The notes under the pieces: model-generated
Database searches by the model: none
Told to the model about the DNA's origin: nothing
Seen by the model: only the letters and a program-made list of their open reading frames with translations
Source: Paenibacillus sp. FSL H8-0537
GTDB lineage: Bacteria; Bacillota; Bacilli; Paenibacillales; Paenibacillaceae
Length of the DNA stretch: 64,000 nt
Assembly (NCBI RefSeq): GCF_038051995.1
Contig: NZ_CP150290.1
Coordinates: 6,858,501 to 6,922,500, forward strand
Direction of reading: 5' to 3'
Translations under genes and position numbers: made by a program
In this document: positions 40,800 through 62,586 of the stretch, piece by piece
Position numbering within the stretch: position 1 is the first letter of the stretch
Layout: every line of letters starts with the position of its first letter

Positions 40800-41690
40800 C
40801 TAAACACGGTATTGGGCCTGTTCCTCCAATTGAGCAACGGTCTCCTCAAAATTATTTATTGGACGGTAGCCCAAGTCGTTTCTGATTTTGTTGCAGTTAT
40901 ACGTCATTCTTATTGGGTTCCCATCGGGTATGATTAGCGTTTTGTTCATTGCACGCGCAATACGTACAGTAAACTCATTTTCTGTATAGTTTCCGTCCAC
41001 AGCGTTGTAGATCTGGTTTACTGCCGCAGAATGCGTCGCTGCTAATACACACATCTCAGCTAGATTATCCGCATGCACCCATGGTGTCAAATCCTCAGGA
41101 TGAATCCAATCCACCTTTTCTGCCGCAGCAAGCTTTGCGATCAGCCTGTCGCCCCAGTGAGAGTTATTTTCGGCACAGATAATGCCTGGGCGCAAAATAA
41201 CACATTTTAGTCCATTATCCCTTGCATCTTGTAAAATCCGTTCCGATTCACATTTCGTTGAAGTGTACACCTCAGAGTGACCGTATGCTAGATCGCTTGC
41301 TTCATCCAGCTCAACCTCTCCTTCAAAATGACCATAAACAGATACCGTGGAAATATGTACGAAGCGTTTAGCACCAGCTGTTATAGCCCCATCAACCAGA
41401 CTTTGGACCCCTTGAATATTAGATTGCTCAGCAGTGGTTCTATCGCCACCGAGATACGCTGCAGCGTGAATGACGATGTCTACATCTTTGAGCGCTTCCT
41501 TCATCGCTTCCCTATCCGTTAAGTCTCCGATTATAGGTGTTATGCCAAGTTTATTACAAAAGGGAACTTGCTCTTTATTACGTATAAGTCCTTTTACCCT
41601 TGCACCCTCTCTGAGACACTTTGTGGCAATTTTGTCCCCTGCAGTTCCAGATATACCTGTAACAAAAACAACCTTATCGCGAAGCCTCAT
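40800..41690 (-). CDS. NAD-dependent epimerase/dehydratase (extended SDR), paralogue 1
   Basis: A 296-residue extended short-chain dehydrogenase. It has the nucleotide-binding loop VFVTGISGTAGDKIA, DIVIHAAAYLG, a catalytic Tyr-Lys pair in YTSTK, and an upstream HISTVSVYG. The overall pattern is like 3-beta-hydroxysteroid dehydrogenase/isomerase-type epimerases. AAAGGGGG precedes the ATG. A close paralogue lies at 53737-54636. Most residues are identical when aligned, so this is a recent duplication within or near this region. Substrate unknown; DUF4304 and nucleotidyltransferase genes beside the two copies give no hint. Confidence 0.82.
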   Translation of the reverse strand: MRLRDKVVFVTGISGTAGDKIATKCLREGARVKGLIRNKEQVPFCNKLGITPIIGDLTDREAMKEALKDVDIVIHAAAYLGGDRTTAEQSNIQGVQSLVDGAITAGAKRFVHISTVSVYGHFEGEVELDEASDLAYGHSEVYTSTKCESERILQDARDNGLKCVILRPGIICAENNSHWGDRLIAKLAAAEKVDWIHPEDLTPWVHADNLAEMCVLAATHSAAVNQIYNAVDGNYTENEFTVRIARAMNKTLIIPDGNPIRMTYNCNKIRNDLGYRPINNFEETVAQLEEQAQYRV

Positions 41691-45584: not shown

Positions 45585-46364
45585 TCATGAACGCTTTCGG
45601 GCGACCACCGCTAACCGGCCGTTTTCGGTCGAGTACTCGCATGTGGACAGCACAATAAGCTTGTCGCCATACCGGGCTGTTACGCCAGTGTCATAAAGAG
45701 CGAGTTCTTTGATATTTTGAACATACGAATCGAACTCGGCGGGCGTACTTGCATTCTCAATCTGGTAGTATTTAAATACGTCGTCCGATTTGCGATAAAC
45801 TTTTGAAAGCAGAACGGCAACAATTTCATACTCTTCCTTTTCGTAAAGCGTGCTGAACTGGAATGTATCATGCTCTTTATAAAAGCTTTCGTTCTTGTAC
45901 TTCATTAAATCTTTAAACATCCAGCCGCTTTTCATGTGATGTCCATGAATTAGCAAAATGTCCGAACCGTCGGTCCGACTATGCGCGTCCAAAAAAGGGA
46001 GGCCGCCTTTATTTTCCTTTTTATCGAAATCATGATTGAGATAGTACTCCGCATCCTGTAGATTCTGCATGACTGGGTACTCAATTCGGGTGCCGTCAAT
46101 CTTCAGCCAGCCCACGATGTCCGGGTTCCTCTCGTAAAGCTCTCGAAATTCGGGAAGCATGACCGGCTCATTCGCCTTATTGGACAAAAGGGAGGGGAAT
46201 GCATCCCCTCCGACTTTGTCAGACCCTTCCTCCCAAACTTTTGTCAGCTCTTTGATTTTCTGCTGCTCAGCATAATCCCGCAGGAGAGTTCTCGAAATAC
46301 TAACGAGGGAAAATACCAACACAAGGAAGGAAACGGCGATAAGAAATTTCTTAGTTTTGCTCAT
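45585..46364 (-). CDS. Class B sortase
   Basis: About 259 residues. An N-terminal membrane anchor (about 5-25) is followed by a sortase fold with DIVGWLKIDGTRIEYPVMQ, YYLNHDF, catalytic His in LIHGHHMKSG, catalytic Cys in LSTCEYSTENGR and the adjacent Arg. The long segment between His and Cys, with the extra helix, marks class B. It is encoded 20 bases after the adhesin gene whose C-terminus ends with an APETG motif, so it is the probable dedicated enzyme that joins that protein to the peptidoglycan. The start at 46364 is preferred over 46430, which would overlap the adhesin gene. Confidence 0.9.
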   Translation of the reverse strand: MSKTKKFLIAVSFLVLVFSLVSISRTLLRDYAEQQKIKELTKVWEEGSDKVGGDAFPSLLSNKANEPVMLPEFRELYERNPDIVGWLKIDGTRIEYPVMQNLQDAEYYLNHDFDKKENKGGLPFLDAHSRTDGSDILLIHGHHMKSGWMFKDLMKYKNESFYKEHDTFQFSTLYEKEEYEIVAVLLSKVYRKSDDVFKYYQIENASTPAEFDSYVQNIKELALYDTGVTARYGDKLIVLSTCEYSTENGRLAVVARKRS

Positions 46365-46383
46365 TTTCTTACCGCCTTTCCGG

Positions 46384-49300
46384 TCACTGGATGTACTTTT
46401 TCTTCTTGTTACCGAGTAGACAGAACCCAATCGTCATCAAGGACATCAGCGCCAAAGCCATATAGAAGATTGGCGGTACGCTGTTGTCTCCGGTTTCCGG
46501 AGCATCGTCCAGCTCGTTGTTACCGTTGTCGGTTCCGCCGTTGCCGTTGTCGGTTCCACCGTTGCCGTTGTCGGTTCCACCGTTGCCGTTGTCGGTTCCG
46601 CCGTTGCCGTTGTCGGTTCCGCCGTTGCCGTTGTCGGTTCCACCGTTTCCGTTGTCGGTTCCGCCGTTACCGTTGTCGGTTCCGCCGTTACCGTTGTCAG
46701 TTCCGCCGTTACCGTTGTCAGTTCCGCCGTTACCGTTGTCGGTTCCGCCGTTACCGTTGTCAGTTCCGCCGTTACCGTTGTCGGTTCCGCCGTTGCCGTT
46801 GTCGGTTCCGCCGTTGCCGTTGTCGGTTCCGCCGTTGCCGTTGTCGGTTCCGCCGTTGCCGTTGCCGGTTCCGCCGTTGCCGTTGCCAGGGTTGCCACCG
46901 GAACTGATCGGCTTCATTGGCACATCGTATTTTACAATGTCAAAATCGACAGAAATCGTATCACTCCTGTGCGTCTCGTATCCGTCCTTCGTTACGATCA
47001 GATAGTAATCCGCTTCAGGAAACACCATATACGCATAGAAGCCATTTGCGTCGCTATCCTGCTCCGGGCTCTCGTTATCGTGCGGTGGAAAATTTGGAAC
47101 TGCAGGAAGCGTTACTTTTGTATCCGGAACGCGGCCTTTATCTCTATTGCGCTGCGTATCCGCATAATACAATGTAACTTTGGCTCCGTCAATTTTCTTG
47201 CCAGTAATGGCATCTCCTGTCGTTTCATCATAAACCGTACCGTAAGGATCGACCAATTCCTCGGAAATATTCAGCTCTCCGTTAGCCTTTACGTCCAGCT
47301 GCGTCACCTTGAAGAGCAGTTCCTCGCCGGTCACAGCTGTATAGCGAATTTCCATTGTGTACTTCTGCTCGCTTAGCCCTTCAACGGAGAAAGTTCCGTT
47401 CGAAGCCATCGGAAATGCCTTGGGACGACCGTTCTCTGTAATATAATGGCCATCCTGGTCCTTCAAATAGATATGCATCTGGCTGGTAAACGAATTGTTG
47501 AATAGCTCTGTTGCTCCATCCAGTTGCTTGAACAGAACGATCCCTACCGCCGTAATGTCCGCCGGAACGGTCTCGCCTGTCACGCTGCCGTCCACATTTG
47601 CTTTTTGCGTGAATTCTACAGGGACATCCTTCCCGCCTACCTGATACCTCTTCGTATATGTGATCGTATAGTCGGTATCCGCTGTGACTGGGACTGAATA
47701 TTCACCCTTCTCATTCGTCTCCACCTGAAGCTCCTTGCCTGTCTTCAGATCGGTCACCGTAATGGGTGCATTCGGAATGACTTCTCCTGTGTTGTTGTCA
47801 CGCAGCACGCCTTCCAGATACGGGCGTGTATTGACAAAGTGTGCTTCAGCCACTTTTTTCTCCGGAATGGTGCCTGTGCGAACGAGACTTTCAGGATCCG
47901 TCACATAGCCTTCATTCGTATAATCATCTTGGGTCACCTTATACTGGAGATACGTCGGAAGTCCTTGCACAACGAGCGTCTGGCCATGTGTAAGCTCGAA
48001 GGTCTCTCCGCTCCTGATCGTGCCCTTGCTGCCGTCCGACTTCTCATAGGAGTAGGATTCGCTTGCTCCCTCGCCTGTGAAGGTAACCGTGTACTTAAAC
48101 GGCAGCTGTTTGTCTTCGTCTTTGCCTTTAACCGTGTTGCTGATTAGCAGGCCGCCCTTCAAAACTCGCAAGTTCGTAAATGGGGCCTCTTCATCTTTGC
48201 CCTCCATGACTCCGGTATAATACCGTTCCTCAGGAATGGTCACGTATTCGTCGGCTGTGTATTCCTTCTGGGTAATTGTATATTTCAGATCCTTAGGCAG
48301 ATCCAAAATATCCAGTGTCTCTCCATCCTTGAGCTTGAAGGTATCGCGGGACTTGATCGTACCTGTTCCGCCGCCCGACTTCAAGTAAGAGTAGCTTCCA
48401 TCCTTGCCTGCATCCTCAAAGAGGACCGTGTACTCGAACTCCTTCGTCTTGTTGCCGCCATTGCCCATGACCGTATTGCTGACGGTCAGCTTGTTAACGT
48501 TTCGCTCATTGATGAAGTCCGCCTTGTGGTCGCCTTTATTCACGATTGTTTCAGACAGCTCTCTCGTCTCCGGCGTGGTGATATAACCATCAACGGTCGT
48601 ATAATCGGCCTCCGTTACGGTATAGACCAGATCCGCAGGTAATGCCGGGAGTGTCACAGATTCTCCGTGCTTAAGGGTAATCTTGTCTCCGCTCTTAATC
48701 GTGCCCGTCGTATTATCCGACTTCTGATAGACGTACTCTCCATCCTTGCCTTCACCAGTGAAGGTCACAGTGTATTCAAAATCCTTGGAAGAGTCGCTGC
48801 CGTTTCCTTCCACCTTATTGCTGATGGTCAGCTTTCCTTGAGCCGGCGTAGGCACCACCAGCGGAATATCAGAGGTTACTTTCACGCCGTCTACCCAGAT
48901 AGGCTTTCCAGGCGTATTCCCTACGTATACCTGATAAATTCTTGTAGTTGGCAACCATGTCGTTGTGTCAATATAAGTTTCCTTCAGCTCATAATACCCT
49001 GGATCTGGGAATAGCAGATTAAGTTTCCCTCCGCTATCGGTTGTTCCTTTAGCGACTTGAGTTCCGTCGCCTTTCTTATAGAGCGTGAACTCTACATCTT
49101 TTAGCGGATTGTTGCCCGGATCTACCTTTTTCAGAGGCAGCAGAGCATTGGAGTTTGAACTGCCGGCTACGTCTGAATTATCCAGCGTGCTTTCACTTTT
49201 GGCACTGACAGATTTCAGCTTATCATCGCCCATCAGCTTTACCTCGTTGCCCATTTTGTCGCCAGCTCTCGCTTTAGAAGGGTCAACCTCGGTTTGGTAC

Positions 49301-52300
49301 ACAAACTGGTAAAACTTATTAGGGTTGTCCATTTTAAATAGTAGAACCGTAGTGCCGTCCTCACCGGGCCCAGCTTCCACCCGAACTTCAGAATTCGGGT
49401 CGCTGAGATTCAGTGCAGCACCGTCTCGTTCCAGAGCGCCGCCAGCAGTCAGTTTAGCAGGATAGACCGCCATACTAGGCACTGTCAGCACAAGCTTCCC
49501 GTCTCCTTCATAGCGTAGATTCATACCTGCACCTAGGGTATCCTGTAAATAAACGCCCTGCTCCATGTTGAATGGCGGGGTATAGTTTACCGTCCACTCC
49601 AGCACCCCTGGAACTGGTTTAGTTACCGACTTGCCCAGAGTCTGAATAGGTACAATAACTTTGCGCTGTTCAGTGAGAACCTTCTCTTCTCCGCCCCATG
49701 TCATATGAAGGTCGGCTTTGTTATACAGCACCTGCTTGTCTGTGCCGTTGGTGGTGTACTCCTCTAAATATTTCTCCAGAGCTGCATTGGAAGGTCTTGC
49801 CTTTACCAGAATGACATAAGGGCTTTCCAACTTGGAGAAGGTGAATGTGCCTTCTCTGCCACTATGGGAGAAACTCGCCACATGAGCAGGGTCGTTTGGC
49901 TCAATAATGGACACGGCGTTGTTTCGAAACCCATAGCCAGTGCCGCTGACATTATCTGAGTAGCCCTTATAAAGCTCATAGTCCTTTCCATCTCCATAAG
50001 GAACGAATTCCCAACCTTCCGGCAAGGTGTCCACCAGCTTCACATTGGTGATGACCCGACTTCCGCCGTCTTTCGCCATTTCGACTGTGTTGTAGCCCGG
50101 CATATTGACGGCTAGGCGGAAGGTGACCGTCTTAGTTATCCGGTCATAACCAGCAAAGGTATATGCGTCGCTGCTTGAGGAGCTGTCATAACCGATATAG
50201 CGTTGAACGTTGTTCGGCGTATACCAGGTGTCAGCCGTCCCATCCCCCTTAATCGGATAGGATGCCGCAAGCATATCCTTGTTCAGCATACGCAGGTGAA
50301 GGTTGGCGCTGTTTTGCGCTTGTTTTACGGTTTCGCCGTCAATGAGCAAAGCCCGATTCCAGATTGTTTTCCCTTCGTTAATATCCTGTCTGAAGAGGAT
50401 GTCTGTGTTGGTCTCAAGTGCACGGAAGCTGAAGGATGAAGCTTCGTCGGTGTATCCGGTCACCTTGATCAAATCCGCCACCACTTTACCGTCCACGGTT
50501 AAAGGAATATTTTTTATGGTCAGGCTGGTTGCATTAGTCTTTAGAGTTCCCGCCTGATATTGCTTCCAAAGCTGCGCAGAATTGACGTTGCCCTTGATTT
50601 TCGCAATCGTTTCCGCACTAACCTCGCCCGTTTCATCCACAGCGTTGTCCAAGACGTTAAGATCTCCGCCATGCACCAACACATCGTATACCGCTGCATT
50701 TGGCAAGGCATACTGTGGCGTTAAATTAACGGTCCATGTAACGCTGCCCAGGTTATAATCCTCCATCGTAATAGCGCCTGTTTTTGTAAAAGTGTGCGCC
50801 CCGACGGTGACAATCGCCTCATCAGTCACTGCGTTAGGTCTTGTACCAGTCATGACATCGTTGTTTTGAATGCCATTTGGTGTATCCAAATTCCAGTTGG
50901 CACGAGGATCGATTCTAAAGCTGGAACCGCTTTTCACCTTGCTCTTAATTACTAATTCTACTTTACCGTTAATATCCCCAAAGGAATAAAGTCCGTTCGA
51001 ATCTGGTGCAATTTGTGTTGCTTCAGATACAGTACCATCTACCGTTGTCTGCCATGTCGCCGATTCAAATTCCAGCCCAGCAGGTAATACATTTGTTATA
51101 GAAAAGTCCTTTAACCCTTTTTTATTATATTGGTTAACGGTTACTTTCCAGGTAATCGTTTCATTTGGATGGTCATAGGAGGCGGATGCTTGGATCCAGT
51201 CGGGTGCTACCCACGTTTCCCGCACTGCAGTGGCTTTTACACTAGCCCCCGCATCCCTCAGCTCAACCTTTGGATCAAAACGCTGTCCGCCAGATCGACC
51301 GGGATCGAGTGCCACGCCCCGATACTCTTTATAATACACATCCTTGTTAAACCACGCTTGATACTCAACTTTTGGATCTACCCCGGTATCTGCCGGGAAA
51401 ATGTAGCTCAGCTCGCCATCTGCACCAATGGTTGGCTCTACCGTAGTGCCGTTTACCTTGAAGGATCCCGGTACATAGACCATACGGTAATCGGAAGGCT
51501 TTGTATAGAACGTCATCCCATCTAGTGGCAGCTTGATTGTTGTATCTAGCACATCAAAAGAGGATGGAGTAGACTGGATGGTCAGAAAACCATCCTGATA
51601 GGCTGGTACGGTCACATACCACCAAGTCCAGCTCCCATTTTTAGGCCAGTTGTTTCCTGCCAAGTTGATGCTGTACGCCGGCGTAACATCCGGGTTCTTT
51701 AGCTCATACGCTCCCCCGAAAATCGAGATAGGCTTGGTATCGCCGTAATTCATGCCCGTTACATCCGAATTGGCAGTGGTTTCAAAGCCGAAGGTAACTG
51801 CTCTTCCGATACCATTGAAAAACCAATCGTCGCCATTAAATACAATCTTGATGCTATTCGGGGTGAAATAAGCGGTACCAAGCTGTTTCGCTCCGAATTC
51901 AGTTGTGGCCATCAAGGATTTGGTAGCCGTTGGCAGCACCACTTCCTTGAAGTAGGGATCCCTTTTTAGCTCAATCGAGTCTCCCTTCTGAATGTACTTG
52001 GTCGTGTCATTTTCATCCGGGGTATTTGCATAATCCCCCTTCACCGGCACCTTGAGGCCCTCTGATTTGAGGGTAAATGCCTGTCGGCCCTGAATTGTAC
52101 CGCCTGGAGCAATTTCAGTTCCCTGCGTCACCTTCAGCGGAAAGGTAGCATTTTCATCCATAAACACCACCGTTTTGTCCGTCACGGCTGCCGTCATCAT
52201 TATGGATTTGTTCGGCACATTGTATACCGCCTCAGTTACTGATTGCGGTTCGTCTGCGCTCGACGTGCTTTCCGCATATGCAGGGACAGAGAATGCCACC

Positions 52301-52371
52301 GTCTGCAGGACGAGCATAATTGCCAGGCAGAAAGAGAGTATTGCTTTACCTATGCTGCGTTTTCGTTTCAA
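46384..52371 (-). CDS. Giant sortase-anchored surface adhesin with Cna-type repeats
   Basis: About 1995 residues. The TTG at 52371, nine bases after GGAGGAG, gives MKRKRSIGKAILSFCLAIML and a signal peptide ending AYAES. Residues about 60-1100 are beta-sandwich adhesin domains (DUF11 and Cna-like, with VTWTVNLTPQYALPNA and similar phrases). A SpaA-type domain follows (PLKKVDPGNNPLKDVEFTLY), then three related domains starting KLTISNKVEGNG, KLTVSNTVMGNG and LLISNTVKGKD. Carboxypeptidase-regulatory-like domains come next, then about 17 NGNGGTD repeats as a wall-spanning stalk. The sorting signal is APETGDNS, a hydrophobic helix and KKKKYIQ. Internal isopeptide bonds are likely. Adhesion to a surface is inferred. 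Confidence 0.9.
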   Translation of the reverse strand: MKRKRSIGKAILSFCLAIMLVLQTVAFSVPAYAESTSSADEPQSVTEAVYNVPNKSIMMTAAVTDKTVVFMDENATFPLKVTQGTEIAPGGTIQGRQAFTLKSEGLKVPVKGDYANTPDENDTTKYIQKGDSIELKRDPYFKEVVLPTATKSLMATTEFGAKQLGTAYFTPNSIKIVFNGDDWFFNGIGRAVTFGFETTANSDVTGMNYGDTKPISIFGGAYELKNPDVTPAYSINLAGNNWPKNGSWTWWYVTVPAYQDGFLTIQSTPSSFDVLDTTIKLPLDGMTFYTKPSDYRMVYVPGSFKVNGTTVEPTIGADGELSYIFPADTGVDPKVEYQAWFNKDVYYKEYRGVALDPGRSGGQRFDPKVELRDAGASVKATAVRETWVAPDWIQASASYDHPNETITWKVTVNQYNKKGLKDFSITNVLPAGLEFESATWQTTVDGTVSEATQIAPDSNGLYSFGDINGKVELVIKSKVKSGSSFRIDPRANWNLDTPNGIQNNDVMTGTRPNAVTDEAIVTVGAHTFTKTGAITMEDYNLGSVTWTVNLTPQYALPNAAVYDVLVHGGDLNVLDNAVDETGEVSAETIAKIKGNVNSAQLWKQYQAGTLKTNATSLTIKNIPLTVDGKVVADLIKVTGYTDEASSFSFRALETNTDILFRQDINEGKTIWNRALLIDGETVKQAQNSANLHLRMLNKDMLAASYPIKGDGTADTWYTPNNVQRYIGYDSSSSSDAYTFAGYDRITKTVTFRLAVNMPGYNTVEMAKDGGSRVITNVKLVDTLPEGWEFVPYGDGKDYELYKGYSDNVSGTGYGFRNNAVSIIEPNDPAHVASFSHSGREGTFTFSKLESPYVILVKARPSNAALEKYLEEYTTNGTDKQVLYNKADLHMTWGGEEKVLTEQRKVIVPIQTLGKSVTKPVPGVLEWTVNYTPPFNMEQGVYLQDTLGAGMNLRYEGDGKLVLTVPSMAVYPAKLTAGGALERDGAALNLSDPNSEVRVEAGPGEDGTTVLLFKMDNPNKFYQFVYQTEVDPSKARAGDKMGNEVKLMGDDKLKSVSAKSESTLDNSDVAGSSNSNALLPLKKVDPGNNPLKDVEFTLYKKGDGTQVAKGTTDSGGKLNLLFPDPGYYELKETYIDTTTWLPTTRIYQVYVGNTPGKPIWVDGVKVTSDIPLVVPTPAQGKLTISNKVEGNGSDSSKDFEYTVTFTGEGKDGEYVYQKSDNTTGTIKSGDKITLKHGESVTLPALPADLVYTVTEADYTTVDGYITTPETRELSETIVNKGDHKADFINERNVNKLTVSNTVMGNGGNKTKEFEYTVLFEDAGKDGSYSYLKSGGGTGTIKSRDTFKLKDGETLDILDLPKDLKYTITQKEYTADEYVTIPEERYYTGVMEGKDEEAPFTNLRVLKGGLLISNTVKGKDEDKQLPFKYTVTFTGEGASESYSYEKSDGSKGTIRSGETFELTHGQTLVVQGLPTYLQYKVTQDDYTNEGYVTDPESLVRTGTIPEKKVAEAHFVNTRPYLEGVLRDNNTGEVIPNAPITVTDLKTGKELQVETNEKGEYSVPVTADTDYTITYTKRYQVGGKDVPVEFTQKANVDGSVTGETVPADITAVGIVLFKQLDGATELFNNSFTSQMHIYLKDQDGHYITENGRPKAFPMASNGTFSVEGLSEQKYTMEIRYTAVTGEELLFKVTQLDVKANGELNISEELVDPYGTVYDETTGDAITGKKIDGAKVTLYYADTQRNRDKGRVPDTKVTLPAVPNFPPHDNESPEQDSDANGFYAYMVFPEADYYLIVTKDGYETHRSDTISVDFDIVKYDVPMKPISSGGNPGNGNGGTGNGNGGTDNGNGGTDNGNGGTDNGNGGTDNGNGGTDNGNGGTDNGNGGTDNGNGGTDNGNGGTDNGNGGTDNGNGGTDNGNGGTDNGNGGTDNGNGGTDNGNGGTDNGNGGTDNGNNELDDAPETGDNSVPPIFYMALALMSLMTIGFCLLGNKKKKYIQ
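46520..46890 (-). repeat. About seventeen 21-bp coding repeats
   Basis: Near-perfect 21-base repeats encode NGNGGTD and differ mainly by third-position variants (GCC/ACC, GTC/ATC). Because no frame of the unit contains a stop, all frames appear open. The array is prone to expansion and contraction, so stalk length may vary between strains. Confidence 0.9.
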
Positions 52372-52729
52372 GACACACTTCTCCTCCATTCCCAAAACTA
52401 CTAATATACTTTCACCCAAATTTCGACACTTTCTTTCTTAGTTTAAAAACTTAGCCTCTACAAAATCTCTACAATGTGAAAAATTTCCTCCCTCTTGCAA
52501 AAATCAGTAAAAAACAACCGCTTACAGGATTCAAAACGATAAATATTGATTGTAATCATGACTTCCTAACCTTGCATTAATTTTGAGATATCTCCCTAAA
52601 GTGGTACCTTTCTATTTGGATATCTGATTTAATAGAATAAAGATATTCCCTTATGTGAGTTTTTTCCTTTATATGCGTAGTTTAAGGTGAGGGGATTTCT
52701 TACAGAAACCTAAAGAAGGACGGTTGATT
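52372..52729. other. Divergent intergenic region, adhesin and DUF3137 genes
   Basis: AT-rich leader region holding the promoters of both genes. A TATATT at about 52395-52400 on the minus strand could be the adhesin -10; its -35 is unclear. No gene, repeat or strong hairpin was seen. Confidence 0.4.
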
Positions 52730-53736: not shown

Positions 53737-54636
53737 TTAGATCGGATATTGCAATGAGCGAGCTTGCTCCTCTAAATGAGCAACTGTCTCTTCAAAATTT
53801 TTTATTGATCGGTAGCCCAACTCGTTTCTTATTTTATTACAGCTATAGGCCATTCTTATTGGGCTGCCATCGGGTATGATGAGCGTTTTATTTAGAGCAT
53901 GCACAATACGTACACTAAACTCACCTTCTGTATAGTTTCCGTCCACCGCATTATAGGTCAGATTGACTGCCGCAGCATGCGTTGCTGCTAATACGCACAT
54001 CTCAGCTAAGTTATCCGCATGCACCCAGGGTGTTAAATCGTCAGGATGTATCCAATCTATATTATCTGCCGCAGCAAGCTTGGCAATCAGCCTGTCGCCC
54101 CAGTGGGAGTTATTTTCAGCACATATAATGCCTGGACGCAAAATGACGCAGCCTAACCCATCAGCCATTGCAGCTTGTACAATCCGTTCCGATTCGCATT
54201 TTGTTGAAGTGTACACCTCAGAATGACCGTATGCTAATTCACTGGCTTCATCCAGCTCCACCTCGCCTTCCAGATGACCATAAACGGATACAGTGGAAAG
54301 ATGTACGAGGCGTTTAACTCCTGCCCATATTGCCTCATCAACCAGACTTTCGACCCCGTGAATATTAGATTTCTCAGCCATGGTCCTATCACTACCGAGA
54401 TACGCTGCAGCGTGAATGATGACATCTACATCTGTAAGAGCTTCCTTTATGACGCTTCTATCCGTTAGGTCTCCGATTATAGGGACAATGCCAAGATTAT
54501 CACAAAGGAGAACTTGCTCTTTGCTTCGTATAAGCCCTTTCACTTTTGCGCCCTCACTGAGGCATTTTGTGACAATCTTGTCTCCTATGGTTCCCGAAAC
54601 ACCAGTAACAAAAACAACTTTATTGCGAAGTCTCAT
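53737..54636 (-). CDS. NAD-dependent epimerase/dehydratase (extended SDR), paralogue 2
   Basis: A 299-residue protein nearly collinear with the gene at 40800-41690. It has VFVTGVSGTIGDKIV, DVIIHAAAYLG, HLSTVSVYG and YTSTK in the same places, and most other residues are shared. It differs at the extreme C-terminus (EEQARSLQYPI). AAAGGAG precedes the ATG. It lies 20 bases downstream of the nucleotidyltransferase gene on the same strand, so it may be cotranscribed with that gene, whereas paralogue 1 follows a DUF4304 gene. The two copies therefore sit in different transcription contexts. Confidence 0.82.
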   Translation of the reverse strand: MRLRNKVVFVTGVSGTIGDKIVTKCLSEGAKVKGLIRSKEQVLLCDNLGIVPIIGDLTDRSVIKEALTDVDVIIHAAAYLGSDRTMAEKSNIHGVESLVDEAIWAGVKRLVHLSTVSVYGHLEGEVELDEASELAYGHSEVYTSTKCESERIVQAAMADGLGCVILRPGIICAENNSHWGDRLIAKLAAADNIDWIHPDDLTPWVHADNLAEMCVLAATHAAAVNLTYNAVDGNYTEGEFSVRIVHALNKTLIIPDGSPIRMAYSCNKIRNELGYRSIKNFEETVAHLEEQARSLQYPI

Positions 54637-56566: not shown

Positions 56567-56890
56567 TTATAGGAATGTGCGTATTTTATCCAGACATTCA
56601 TTGACTACTTCATCGGGCGCTCTGCCAACGACATCTATACGCCGAGCTCGCCAATCCAGATTTTTAATTTGATCCGTTAAAATGACCCCGTCAAAAACTA
56701 ATCCATCTGGCAACAATACTTCAAATCCCCATCCTCTGACTGTATGTGTGATAGGACAAACCGAAACAAAACCTGTTGTCTGATTGAATGCTGCTGGTGA
56801 CAACACAATGGCAGATCTTCTTCCTGACTGTTCGTGACCGGCTTGAGGATTAAAATTGATCCAGACTAGATCTCCCCGATCTGCACTCAT
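56567..56890 (-). CDS. mazF: MazF-type toxin endoribonuclease
   Basis: A 107-residue PemK/MazF protein with GDLVWINFNPQAGHEQSGRR, the RxxxVLSPxxFNxxTG phrase and a closing LTDQIKNLDWRARRI. The conserved Arg and Thr that form the active site are present. It cleaves mRNA at short sequence motifs when freed from its antitoxin. Its ATG directly abuts the antitoxin stop codon, so translation is coupled. Length and motifs are closer to the MazF/ChpA group of E. coli than to Bacillus NdoA. Confidence 0.92.
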   Translation of the reverse strand: MSADRGDLVWINFNPQAGHEQSGRRSAIVLSPAAFNQTTGFVSVCPITHTVRGWGFEVLLPDGLVFDGVILTDQIKNLDWRARRIDVVGRAPDEVVNECLDKIRTFL

Positions 56891-57130
56891 TTAAAATAAT
56901 TCCTTCCCTTCTCTGCCAAAATCGATTTCTTCGTGGCGATTTTCCGGTTTGCATTGCTCTAGCAATTGTTCCAAGGTTGGCTTTTGCTTTTTACGTACTA
57001 TGGTCAGTGTATGATTATCACCTACGATCAAATCAACTTCGGTTCCTTGGCAAATCTCAATTTTTTCAGCAATATGACTTGGAATTCGAATACCTAGACT
57101 GTTTCCCCATTTCTGCACAGTAGTCGACAT
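56891..57130 (-). CDS. mazE: MazE-type antitoxin (AbrB-like)
   Basis: A 79-residue protein. The N-terminal 45 residues are an AbrB/SpoVT-like swapped-hairpin DNA-binding domain (TTVQKWGNSLGIRIPSHIAE). The acidic C-terminal tail binds and blocks the toxin. AAGGAGGG before ATG 57130 fixes the start; an in-frame ATG at 57196 lacks support. It would repress its own promoter through the inverted repeat upstream. Confidence 0.92.
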   Translation of the reverse strand: MSTTVQKWGNSLGIRIPSHIAEKIEICQGTEVDLIVGDNHTLTIVRKKQKPTLEQLLEQCKPENRHEEIDFGREGKELF

Positions 57131-57188
57131 GAAAAACCCTCCTTGTTTTGAAGCTTTTTGATTCATTCTATCACACCTCCACCCCTTC

Positions 57189-57207
57189 GTATACACTTAG
57201 TATATAC
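57189..57207. promoter_or_regulatory. Probable mazEF operator
   Basis: GTATACACTTAGTATATAC is an imperfect inverted repeat overlapping a TATACT -10-like element on the minus strand, about 60 bases before the antitoxin start. Confidence 0.5.
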
Positions 57208-58864: not shown

Positions 58865-60208
58865 CTATTGCTTCCGAGCTACTTTCTTCAATTTTTTCCG
58901 AATTTTCTGCATATGCCTCTTACTCACTAATGCTACCGCTGGTTCATCGTAGAAGATACTCTCGGCCCTCTTAGCATAAGTAATGAAGTTTCCATCCTCA
59001 TGGTTATTCCCAAGAAAAGCTCCTTTAATCGAATAAGTTGAATAAAGATTTTTACAGCTCAGTCTTTCTCCCTTTTTTGTGACACCTTTGTTCTTCGTCA
59101 CAGTACGAATCTTACGATACAATTTATTATAGTATCTTGAAGTTGTTTTTGCTCGTATGGATACGGATTTACCATCGAATGTAAACCCGAGATAATTCAT
59201 GAAACTTGGCCCATTCGGGACATTCTCTAGTACATCTTCGTTACAGCTTTTTATAGTCCCACCACTAAATTCAAATAACTGTGTTTTCTCTAATTCTAAT
59301 TCAACCCTAGGTATCGACTCGATCAATAAACGAATCTGTTGATATTGCGTTTTGAAATTTTCTGAAGTTGATTTTGGTAAAACGATGATAAAATCATCGG
59401 AATATCTCATGTATAGTCCATCATTTTCTAAAACATAATTATTGATTGATTTATCGAAGTCCAACATATATATATTTGAAAAAACAGCACTTATTGCGGA
59501 ACCTTGTGGTATCCCGCAGTTCTCTTTGTGCGGTTTGACCAGCAGCTTTTTTAATTTTTTAAACTGCTCCACAGAAATAGCTCGATCTAATTTATTGAAT
59601 GCAATAATATCCTTCTTTTTAATCCCTAACATGTTGTGAGACAGCAGATGTTCACGGCTCCATGTCGAGTATTTTGTTATATTCTTATAGACAGCATAGT
59701 AATCGGCTGAGAGCCTTTTTTCATCAAGTAGGTCGCATAGCTTTCTTTTCAAGTATTCATGGTCTAAACTATCAAAAAACTTCGCAAAATCACCAATAAT
59801 TATGTAACATTCGGGCTTACTTTTTATAAAGTCTATCGCTCTCTTAGCGAAACGAATGTTATTTCTATGTAGTTTGTCTCGGTAGGCAATGGAGGCTTCT
59901 TCTATTCCATCATCTTCAGCTCGTTTGTTATAGTGCTGGTTCAGTAGAAAACCATAATACTGATAAATATATCGATCAATATGAGCAGAGTAACAGATTT
60001 CGCGATCCTTCACTTTAGTCTTATTGTCGCTAGATTCATCATATTTACGAACTGATAAGGTATAGTTGATGAAAGGGTAAAAACCATGCGTTGCAATCTT
60101 CTCTGGATCACTAACATAGTCCCAGACCTGAGCTAAAGAAACTTTTGTATCGAAGTGGGCAAGGTTCCGTCTAGCCCTATGTCTTTCTTTCCATTCATCA
60201 AGGTTCAA
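58865..60208 (-). CDS. DRT2-like defence-associated reverse transcriptase
   Basis: About 447 residues from TTG 60208. The protein begins NLDEWKERHRARR, HFDTKVSLAQVWDYVSD and HGFYPFINY, an N-terminal pattern of unknown-group/DRT reverse transcriptases rather than retrons or group II introns. Motif A is IGDFAKFFDSLDH (Asp near 140), motif B IPQGSAISAVFSNIY, and motif C YSDDF (269-273) with both catalytic aspartates intact. A basic C-terminal tail replaces any maturase or endonuclease domain. The start at 60208 follows GGGGGT. An upstream in-frame ATG (60277) has no ribosome site and lies inside a predicted RNA stem. An untranslated leader of about 320 bases precedes it, as in DRT2, whose RNA is a template for concatenated cDNA. 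The DRT2 call is from memory of the family. Confidence 0.8.
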   Translation of the reverse strand: MNLDEWKERHRARRNLAHFDTKVSLAQVWDYVSDPEKIATHGFYPFINYTLSVRKYDESSDNKTKVKDREICYSAHIDRYIYQYYGFLLNQHYNKRAEDDGIEEASIAYRDKLHRNNIRFAKRAIDFIKSKPECYIIIGDFAKFFDSLDHEYLKRKLCDLLDEKRLSADYYAVYKNITKYSTWSREHLLSHNMLGIKKKDIIAFNKLDRAISVEQFKKLKKLLVKPHKENCGIPQGSAISAVFSNIYMLDFDKSINNYVLENDGLYMRYSDDFIIVLPKSTSENFKTQYQQIRLLIESIPRVELELEKTQLFEFSGGTIKSCNEDVLENVPNGPSFMNYLGFTFDGKSVSIRAKTTSRYYNKLYRKIRTVTKNKGVTKKGERLSCKNLYSTYSIKGAFLGNNHEDGNFITYAKRAESIFYDEPAVALVSKRHMQKIRKKLKKVARKQ

Positions 60209-60531
60209 AATTATACCCCCTAATAATGGCGTAATGCCTGTCAACATGGGGGGCAGCATCCCTAAGCTAACAGGCATAACCAGGTTACAACCGAGTGCAA
60301 CCCACGTGAACTCATTTAGTTTTTATACATTATGAATCCAGCTGCCCAAGATTTGCTCAATACTCAATCATTGTAAGATTGAAGATAAGGGAGGCTTCGT
60401 CATCATGCTTGTAAGTTGGTTAGTTACAGTCATGTTAACTCAGCGGCTATCAACTGAGACACTATTCCGAATTGGAATATTTGCCCGCCTGTTGACAGCA
60501 ATCCTATTCCCTCATGTCTACACATGAGGCA
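60209..60531 (-). ncRNA. Template-like structured ncRNA of the DRT2-like system
   Basis: The untranslated leader between a strong promoter and the reverse transcriptase. Structures that can be read include a 5' hairpin, CCTCATGT-gtag-ACATGAGG (60529-60510). Next is TATTCC/GGAATA (about 60478-60463), then CTCAG/CTGAG (about 60457-60439), and CAATC-ttacaat-GATTG (about 60380-60364). GGTTGCA/TGTAACC stands at 60302-60283, and a 3' stem ATGCCTGT/ACAGGCAT at 60277-60234. GGAATAG occurs twice, allowing alternative pairing with TATTCC. The length matches the known DRT2 ncRNA (about 280 nt). The 3' end is not defined and could run into the coding region. Confidence 0.7.
60372..60515 (+). other. Predicted cDNA repeat unit encoding an endless (Neo-like) frame
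   Basis: On the strand complementary to the ncRNA, an AAGGGAGG ribosome site (60387-60394) precedes ATG 60405. That frame reads MLVSWLVTVMLTQRLS and, further on, FRIGIFARLLTAILFPH, and is open from 60336 to 60524. TCAT occurs at 60368-60371 and 60512-60515. Jumping from the second to the first gives a 144-base unit of exactly 48 codons without a stop, in frame with the ATG. At that junction a perfect TTGACA (60492-60497) lies 18 bases before TGTAAG, a -10-like element just ahead of the ribosome site. A jump at TGT/ACA instead would give 143 bases and a closed frame. The frame is seen directly; concatenation is inference. Confidence 0.5.
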
Positions 60532-60536
60532 TCTTT

Positions 60537-60565
60537 AGTATAATACAATTTCCAATTTCTTTCAA
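60537..60565 (-). promoter_or_regulatory. Promoter of the ncRNA-reverse transcriptase unit
   Basis: On the minus strand TTGAAA (60565-60560), a 17-base spacer and TATACT (60542-60537) form a near-consensus sigma-A promoter. Transcription would begin at about 60530, at the foot of the first ncRNA hairpin. Confidence 0.75.
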
Positions 60566-61302: not shown

Positions 61303-62586
61303 TCAGTATACCTTCCAAGTGTGACTTACCCATTTTGAATTTACTTGAGTTCTACCAACAGGACGTCCTTCTGTATCCTCCATTATCATTACAAATTTAC
61401 TAATCTTTTCGCTTTGTCTTCCATCCTCTTCAATCTGCAAAAGAACCTCCAGGGTTGTATTAGAAAGGGCTATATCAACAATTGAAACAAACTCAAATGA
61501 TTTAAGTAATTTATCCTTAAAATGCTTTCTTATTTTTGATGGTGCTGCCTTTGTATCAATTATCTTGTGAGGTAGTATATTGGTCATTCCACCATAATTT
61601 TTTCCAATCCAGAACGATAAGAATTCATTCAAAGCATACTCTGGTGAGCCTAGAACAAATGACTCTGGATTCATTGGTATTATATTTCTAGGCTTCCACT
61701 CCGATATCTCTCTCTTGAATTGTTCAGTTGCATGAGCCTTTGTTAATATTTCAGTTATAGACTCCTTTGGCTTTTCCTCAGGAGCTTTCGTTTCTCCCCG
61801 CTCCACCTTTGCTGCCCACTCACCAACAGCAAAAAGAACTGCCCATGTTTTTGCTGCGACTATCTCATTGTCATAACCTAAATCTGTTCCGTGTAAAATT
61901 CCGTTTCTATAAGGAAGGTTAATTTTTTCTGTTGTTGTCTTACGGCGACCTTTTCGCAGAATTCTCACTAACTTCCCTAGTCCCTGACTATGAGCAGCTA
62001 TAGAGTCCCACGCCTCTAGTTGTGTTGTTCCAGCAGAGAAGCCCTTATGATCTTCATGAAGCTCATTTACTAAACCATCTGTTAAAGCCAGTATAACTGG
62101 AATACATGCATGGTACCGTTTCTCTTCATAGTCATTCAATCCTTTTAAAGCTAAGTCCATTCTTGGTTTAAATGCTTTTATTGCATTTAAGCTTCTTAAC
62201 TGTAACCCCACCGTTTTAACGTCATAATATCTAAGAATTATTTCCTGTGCTCCCTGAAAATCACCCGATTCTGCTTTTAATACAGCTTCTCTTGCAACCT
62301 CAAGGCTCATCATGCTGTACATTATCCAACCCTGATCAGCAAAAAAGTTATTGAATCTATCAGGTATACTTACCAGTTCTTTTGTTTGTTTTGCCATACT
62401 ATCTGCTTTTTGAAAAGCGTCTTCCATTTTATTAACATCTACACCAGCTTCTTTAAGGATCGGTCCCAGAAGGGGCATAGCCTCTTTTAGATCCATTATC
62501 CCCTTAGCTGTATTAGATAAATTTTTCATACTATCGATATCACGAAGGCGCTTCTTGACTCGTTTCCTTGGCTTATTTTTGCCCAT
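61303..62586 (-). CDS. Uncharacterised protein with a HEPN-like RxxxxH motif
   Basis: A 427-residue mainly helical soluble protein. A basic start (GKNKPRKRVKKRLRD) leads into helices. At about 232-262 the segment LPYRNGILHGTDLGYDNEIV contains R-N-G-I-L-H-G. This Rx4H spacing is a signature of HEPN ribonuclease-like domains and of Abi-type effectors, and a long helix with WAVLFAVGEWA follows it. The C-terminal 130 residues look like a separate alpha/beta domain with NTF2/cystatin-like strands. GAGGA precedes the ATG. It sits upstream of the reverse transcriptase unit on the same strand but about 740 bases away with its own reading unit. A defence role is inferred from motif and neighbourhood; the family is not identified. 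Confidence 0.6.
   Translation of the reverse strand: MGKNKPRKRVKKRLRDIDSMKNLSNTAKGIMDLKEAMPLLGPILKEAGVDVNKMEDAFQKADSMAKQTKELVSIPDRFNNFFADQGWIMYSMMSLEVAREAVLKAESGDFQGAQEIILRYYDVKTVGLQLRSLNAIKAFKPRMDLALKGLNDYEEKRYHACIPVILALTDGLVNELHEDHKGFSAGTTQLEAWDSIAAHSQGLGKLVRILRKGRRKTTTEKINLPYRNGILHGTDLGYDNEIVAAKTWAVLFAVGEWAAKVERGETKAPEEKPKESITEILTKAHATEQFKREISEWKPRNIIPMNPESFVLGSPEYALNEFLSFWIGKNYGGMTNILPHKIIDTKAAPSKIRKHFKDKLLKSFEFVSIVDIALSNTTLEVLLQIEEDGRQSEKISKFVMIMEDTEGRPVGRTQVNSKWVSHTWKVY

Follow-up and report, generated by a model that had tools for sequence, protein, structure and literature searches.

The closest described system to the locus analysed here is the DRT2 of Klebsiella pneumoniae (KpnDRT2). 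In the accessible parts of the published reports, a reverse transcriptase (RT) is described as copying its template repeatedly, the product becomes a double-stranded concatemer, a promoter arises at the junction between repeats, and the resulting Neo protein arrests growth (PMC11100668, PMC12039810). The elements of this promoter are separated by 17 bp, and the -10 lies twelve bases from the start of the unit (PMC12039810, available in part). The Klebsiella system uses ACA, and ACA motifs have been proposed to guide re-annealing (PMC11100668, in the sections available); the same sections state that annotation of Neo is harder in divergent DRT2 branches, which perhaps use other mechanisms.

Here, we analysed a 64,000-nucleotide stretch of the genome of Paenibacillus sp. 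FSL H8-0537 (the window; positions 6858501-6922500 of a single 7.0 Mb contig). A first-pass annotation of the window had placed in it a DRT2-like RT with an ncRNA and a Gram-positive neo unit with its own jump site. Sequence comparison and analogy with the published system make it highly probable that this is a DRT2 anti-phage system in which the leader-RNA template is copied with re-pairing at CAAT and a 141-base endless neo gene is expressed from a junction promoter. With a small RNA as its template, the RT appears to assemble a repeating gene which the genome does not contain as such.

The RT is a protein of 447 aa (P0001) encoded at 58865-60208 on the minus strand; its likely start is the TTG at 60208, and the listed open frame reaches further, to an ATG at 60277. 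It belongs to the Drt2/UG2 family, as the first-pass annotation had proposed. PADLOC assigned it to Drt2 (E 9.5e-141), with 468 and 311 bits for the Drt2 models and 79 bits for the next family, and PDB chains named Drt2 were among its best matches (213.7 bits). The NCBIfam model NF041746 gave 380.3 bits, just below the cut-off of 390 at which a protein is assigned as a Drt2 equivalog. A YSDD motif was read off the translation, and two relatives (P0055 and P0082) are named antiviral reverse transcriptase Drt2 in their source. The RTs of Paenibacillus albidus and Cohnella terricola are 75% and 68% identical, respectively. In a quick tree of 70 RTs, the window RT falls in a branch of 40 rows (SH-aLRT 99, calculated without bootstrap) that is separate from the E. 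coli type.

The leader upstream of the RT gene had been taken for its ncRNA, and this is supported by an Rfam match, by the fold and by a covarying handle and pseudoknot. The template RNA would span 60230-60533 on the minus strand, with approximate ends, and consensus matches point to a putative promoter for it consisting of TTGAAA (-35, 60560-60565, minus) and TATACT (-10, 60537-60542, minus) with a 17-bp spacing. The Rfam family RT-6 (RF03027) covers 60458-60531 on the minus strand with 57.8 bits, above its gathering cut-off of 46.7. The leader RNA is more stable in its predicted fold than shuffled sequences (z -5.0), and the template is partly base-paired in that fold. Covariation was examined in a MAFFT alignment of 19 RNAs, which comprised L085 and 18 of the 32 loci described below, the other 14 being left out. 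The 5′ handle hairpin (helix 1; 60510-60529, minus) is paired in 98.7% of cells, with two-sided changes in 7 of its 8 pairs. The hairpin at the -10 (helix 2) is paired in 83.5% of cells; by eye, that of the window lies outside the register shared by the relatives. The two pseudoknot helices, whose positions were read from the sequence, are helix 3, with a 5′ arm GGGCAGC (60341-60347, minus) and a 3′ arm GCUGCCC (60251-60257, minus), and helix 4, with its 5′ arm at 60267-60278 and its 3′ arm at 60234-60245 (both minus). Helix 3 is paired in 100% of cells with two-sided changes in 5/7 pairs, and helix 4 in 99.1% with two-sided changes in 7/12 pairs. Together, these four elements are paired in 96% of cells and show 85 two-sided changes, compared to 23 in shuffles; slid controls were paired in 32-47%, a comparison in which the structure is favoured because it was drawn from L072 and from the alignment's own consensus. 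The template is flanked by a 5′ hairpin and a 3′ pseudoknot upstream of the RT, as in the Klebsiella DRT2.

RT-6 gave four matches in 344 genomes of the order, three of them above the cut-off, and each of the four lies just upstream of a DRT2 RT that a protein search had detected in that genome. Within the branch, six of the nine loci scanned scored above the cut-off (L075, L022 and L085 did not). The Rfam entry describes RT-6 only as an sRNA, and a literature search of partial coverage retrieved no paper giving it a function. Since it matches the 5′ 75 positions of the window's template RNA, occurs in branch loci and lies upstream of DRT2 RTs, RT-6 looks like the 5′ part of the template RNA of this DRT2 branch. 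RT-12 (RF03016) was matched by E. coli L097 and Photobacterium L083, and it is a marker of these Klebsiella-like DRT2 RNAs in the way that RT-6 is one of the window's branch; L086 matched neither family.

On the strand complementary to the leader RNA, the first-pass annotation had pointed to a ribosome binding site, an ATG and a frame open for about 190 bases, all of which are present on the plus strand. The neo ribosome binding site is AAGGGAGG at 60387-60394, the likely start codon is the ATG at 60405-60407, and the frame through this ATG is open from 60336 to 60524 (189 bases), with stops at 60333-60335 and 60525-60527. A jump between two in-phase TCAT sites, with a unit of 144 bases, had also been proposed, and a TGT/ACA junction of 143 bases had been offered as an alternative. 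The TCAT sites at 60368 and 60512 are 144 bases apart in equal codon phase and the frame between them is endless by reading; TGT occurs at 60372 and 60515, 143 bases apart. TCAT occurs five times within 60301-60560, and when the interior of the 141-base unit was dinucleotide-shuffled with its ends fixed, the frame remained open in 20% of trials (for the window locus alone). The antisense frame is therefore weak evidence by itself, and the weight comes from the relatives.

Relatives were taken from genome, viral, phage and plasmid collections, and after removal of identical upstream sequences 62 loci were screened and later rescreened with additions. RT searches at E limits of 1e-100 to 1e-60 were positive in 2 of 51 genomes of the genus, 8 of 394 of the family, 9 of 392 of the order, 3 of 398 of the class and 3 of 398 of the phylum, in overlapping sets that include this genome; viral contigs yielded a single relative. 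For 32 loci, a -35 and a -10 were placed by eye on the cDNA strand as TTGACA and TATAAT, respectively, or as hexamers similar to these; where there was more than one candidate, the ribosome-site and hairpin context was used. The placement was not blind, as the 1-mod-3 pattern was already visible in the first screen, and candidates with other remainders were rejected at L005, L013, L028, L039 and loci of the L075 and L024 types. The distance from -10 to -35 is 1 mod 3 in all 32 hand-placed loci, with ten different lengths from 100 to 148, and the units accordingly have ten lengths from 123 to 171 bases, each a multiple of three. Homologous RNAs do not carry stops in every frame of the complementary strand: the same frame is endless in 32/32 of these loci. 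Among the 19 representatives (less than 80% template identity) it is endless in 19, compared to 2.13 expected from shuffles, while the other two frames of the cDNA strand are endless in one and none, and the three frames of the RNA strand in two, none and none.

When the -10 was read from the alignment columns instead, the distance was again 1 mod 3 in 19/19 RNAs, and the acceptor stood 12 bases from the -10 in every case. The independence of this check is limited to the -10, since the aligned stretches were cut at a fixed distance from the hand-placed -35. A mechanical rule, which requires exactly one exact TTGACA/TATAAT pair in range and nothing else, was also applied to 60 representatives of the family and picked 17 loci, the window not among them. 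Fourteen of these 17 have the remainder 1, and these fourteen are also the ones with an endless frame at spacing 17; the others are L093, L089 and L092. In hydrophobicity, the predicted peptides exceed those of shuffled open units in 19/19 representatives (z 2.45 on average, 1.09 at the lowest). Codon-position bias, compared in close pairs of equal length, was weak and was set aside as evidence of coding; owing to this weak bias, selection appears to concern an open frame and a hydrophobic product more than the exact sequence.

In the window, the alignment places the candidate jump boxes at CAAT (RNA AUUG) on both edges of the template. The donor box (60499-60502, plus) begins 7 nt past the handle hairpin, and the acceptor box (60358-60361, plus) stands 12 nt before the -10. 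The ATTG of the donor box is present in 19/19 aligned RNAs; in the acceptor box, AT is present in 19/19 and ATT in 16/19. The predicted cDNA repeat unit at 60362-60502 (plus) has 141 bases, or 47 sense codons, and is endless when joined head to tail. The neo promoter would form at the repeat junction from the -35 TTGACA at 60492-60497 and the -10 TAAGAT at 60374-60379 (both plus), 17 bp apart once joined as in the Klebsiella system. The first screen offered two candidates for the -10, TGTAAG with remainder 0 and TAAGAT with remainder 1, and TAAGAT was taken because it aligns with the TATAAT found in most relatives. The distance from TAAGAT to the -35 is 118 bases, as in L073, L074, L081 and L005. 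TAAGAT has a 4/6 match to TATAAT and is not preceded by the TG that 16 of the 19 representatives have. A TG before the -10 is the extended -10 of Gram-positive promoters, which the conserved TG resembles; as it is missing here, the neo promoter of the window may be weak. Alignment of the homologues bears out the endless frame and the TTGACA of the first-pass annotation, whose neo unit, junction promoter and separate jump site (not ACA) are likewise supported, and moves the junction from TCAT to CAAT. Its TTGACA-18-TGTAAG motifs and their spacing exist at the TCAT junction, but the aligned -10 is TAAGAT; the site, the unit length and the -10 are revised.

Whether the two edges of the template match across the family was tested by overlaying the bases after the -35 on the bases before the -10 at every spacing. 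At spacing 17, the edges agree at spacer positions 3, 4 and 5 in 14, 17 and 18 of the 19 representatives, which is (C)AAT at both edges and AUUG in the RNA. An automated scan of 60 representatives, which required promoter-like hexamers, a match of at least 3, a triplet length and an endless frame, gave 28/60 at spacing 17 and between 2 and 17 at other spacings (17 at spacing 20, and 12 each at 14 and 23). The scan misses L075, L032, L039 and the window, the last because TAAGAT matches TATAAT at only four of six positions. The extra agreement at spacing 20 is ascribed to TATGN before the -10. In the mechanical set of 17 loci, 56 bases are matched at spacing 17, compared to 40.4 after permutation (P 0.002), whereas the lowest P at other spacings within 11-24 is 0.15 and that at spacing 20 is 0.25. 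This weaker figure replaces, as the main evidence, an earlier permutation with 26 loci (1/20000 and 0/4000 at spacing 17; P 0.31 at spacing 20) and its subset of 11 non-CAAT loci (2/20000), both of which are biased because L048, L090 and L085 had entered through a scan with a match among its conditions, and further loci were added after their match had been seen. In the 19 branch representatives alone the match is not above permutation (P 0.32 at spacing 17, 0.27 at 20), since the boxes hardly vary there. Taken over the family, a change in one box appears to be accompanied by a change in the other, and this only at the 17-bp spacing.

What is observed here concerns the RT family, the structure of the RNA, the length and frame of the unit and the conservation of the boxes; that the RT binds the RNA and jumps, that a second strand is made and transcribed, and that the product is toxic, we infer from the relatives and from the published Klebsiella DRT2. 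The RT would bind the minus-strand leader RNA through the 5′ hairpin and the 3′ pseudoknot, copy the RNA complementary to 60362-60502 and halt 7 nt before the 5′ hairpin, which would leave a cDNA ending in CAAT. This end would re-pair with the other AUUG, which lies at the template's 3′ edge, and prime the next round of copying. Head-to-tail joining would bring the TTGACA at 60492 to 17 bp from the TAAGAT at 60374, a promoter found nowhere in the chromosome, and would be followed by conversion of the concatemer to double-stranded DNA and use of the junction promoter. The ribosome site, the ATG and a 47-codon frame without a stop would then give a protein of the Neo type, repetitive and hydrophobic, by which the infected cell would be arrested.

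The main alternative in geometry is the same system with a jump at TCAT (60368 and 60512), a 144-base unit and a TTGACA-18-TGTAAG promoter. The pair and its phase are real, its frame is endless as well, and measured to the aligned TAAGAT this junction has a spacing of 20, where some extra edge agreement was seen (17/60 representatives). Nevertheless, its donor (60512-60515) lies inside the handle helix at 60510-60529, in which 7/8 pairs show two-sided changes, spacing 20 is not above permutation in any of the sets (P 0.27, 0.31 and 0.25), TGTAAG at 60372 is not at the column of the relatives' TATAAT, and the published Klebsiella geometry is 17 bp (PMC12039810, in the part available). We consider this version very unlikely. 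A 20-bp junction spacing had been considered in its own right, as TATG occurs near both edges, and was dropped for want of an excess over permutation; the 143-base TGT/ACA junction was rejected on its spacing, its position relative to the hairpin and the permutation tests.

Two further explanations accept the RT and its RNA and question the gene. The RNA might be copied and perhaps concatenated while the antisense frame stays untranslated, openness and triplet length being by-products of structural constraint. The weak codon-position bias in close pairs and the partial base pairing of the template in the predicted fold would agree with this, but ten unit lengths between 123 and 171 bases that are always multiples of three, the closed state of the other frames, peptides more hydrophobic than shuffles, and a ribosome site and start codon positioned after the promoter all argue against it and make it the least probable of the alternatives. 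Somewhat less remote, though still improbable, is that the locus has decayed and that no Neo is now made in this Paenibacillus strain, as the TAAGAT in place of TATAAT and the missing TG could indicate. Against decay, the open frame of the RT is intact, the neo frame and its ribosome site, the boxes, the -35, the handle and the pseudoknot are all kept, and TAAGAT also occurs in L077 with equal geometry. A functional 141-base neo unit with a CAAT jump is therefore the reading that we prefer.

The window system resembles KpnDRT2 in its RT family, in a single upstream RNA with a 5′ hairpin, a template and a 3′ pseudoknot (PMC11100668, PMC12039810, PMC12596737), in a promoter whose halves lie at the two template ends, 17 bp apart once joined and with twelve bases between the start of the unit and the -10, and in an endless frame with predicted helical or hydrophobic repeats, as far as the available parts of these sources describe them. 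It differs in its boxes, which are AUU(G) rather than ACA (the template in the window is flanked by AUUG at both edges instead of by ACA motifs), in its unit of 141 rather than 120 bases (the Klebsiella values again from the accessible text), in the match of its RNA to RT-6, where the Klebsiella-like E. coli and Photobacterium RNAs match RT-12, and in the division of the spacer, 12+5 compared to 11+6 counted in E. coli L097. The branch of the window is found in Bacillota hosts, and the RT is 31.6% identical to the Photobacterium relative. The alignment region of telomerase RNA, a comparison made in the available part of PMC12039810, likewise provides a short match at the 3′ edge of the template that re-pairs with the cDNA end; no homology is claimed, the DRT2 template is far longer and its product is a gene. 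A literature search of partial coverage (DRT2/neo, RT-6/RT-12 and Paenibacillus DRT2) retrieved no AUU boxes and no neo gene in this branch.

Within the branch, 38 of the 40 rows give an endless triplet unit, namely the 32 hand-placed loci, L085, and L041, L082, L071, L036 and L038, the last five of which were located later with the rule already in mind. The RT of L074 is flagged with one TAA and its unit is still endless. For L030, a truncated locus, no -35 was found within the roughly 320 upstream bases available. In L088, the RT has an in-frame TGA and CAAT is seen by eye at both edges; no good -10 was found at these edges and the -10/-35 pairs tried were not 1 mod 3. L088 is perhaps a decayed copy and as such a natural decayed control.

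Among the outgroup loci resolved, endless units were found in L096, L097, L083, L048, L086 and L090. The E. coli locus L097, near the Klebsiella RT at 472 bits, served as a positive control: its TGT boxes and endless 117-base unit are in line with the ACA rule (PMC11100668, PMC12039810, in the portions available). Hairpins were located automatically in 30 loci, and the gap between the handle and the donor box is 7 nt in 19 of them, 6 nt in four, and 2, 5, 9, 10 or 11 nt in the other seven; judged by eye, several of the deviating distances arise where a chance match lengthens the box or where the hairpin was called at a shifted position. The 7-nt distance is common to L097 (TGT), Acinetobacter L048 (AGAT) and the gut phage record L090 (ATAC). 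The relatives suggest that the jump boxes differ between branches of the family yet still match each other. We lean towards the view that structure and simple matching, and not ACA, determine the DRT2 jump: copying would stop 7 nt from the hairpin, and the 3-5 bases present there would recur at the far edge. The boxes would have drifted (RNA ACA, AUU, GUAU, AUCU), both copies in step, with the 17-bp promoter and the triplet unit retained throughout.

If the reading of the window is correct, the endless-gene mechanism extends to a large branch in Bacillota, and the family offers a natural compensatory test of the re-annealing model. Such hidden genes could then be sought by a simple rule: a hairpin, 7 nt and a box, a matching box, a 17-bp junction promoter and a unit divisible by three. 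Were the jump set by structure and matching, neo genes encoded in ncRNAs would become predictable where published annotation failed, and the RT-6 RNA would be explained.

Some loci depart from this rule. On a plasmid of Nitratidesulfovibrio vulgaris DP4, upstream of drt2, L093 has matched CAGT boxes, a 7-nt linker and spacing 17, and its 145-base unit shifts frame at every repeat, with a longest stop-free stretch of 123 codons; this could mean either a finite Neo read across successive frames or decay. L089 and L092, also outside the branch, do not fit. DRT2 loci with their own boxes occur in the phage records L085, L086 and L090, one of which is named Clostridioides phage HGP05.

Several neighbours of the DRT2 locus in the window were also recorded. 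A protein of 427 residues is encoded upstream of the DRT2 RNA (61303-62586); searches of Pfam, NCBIfam and PADLOC at E 0.001 gave no match for it. A pair consisting of a PemK/MazF-type toxin and a MazE-type antitoxin lies near the locus at 56567-57196. By eye, a surface-type protein of very great length, whose tail is a long glycine/asparagine repeat (45585-52419), adjoins a sortase-like frame, and two similar epimerase-type genes (40800-41690 and 53737-54636) flank this stretch, perhaps as the result of a duplication.
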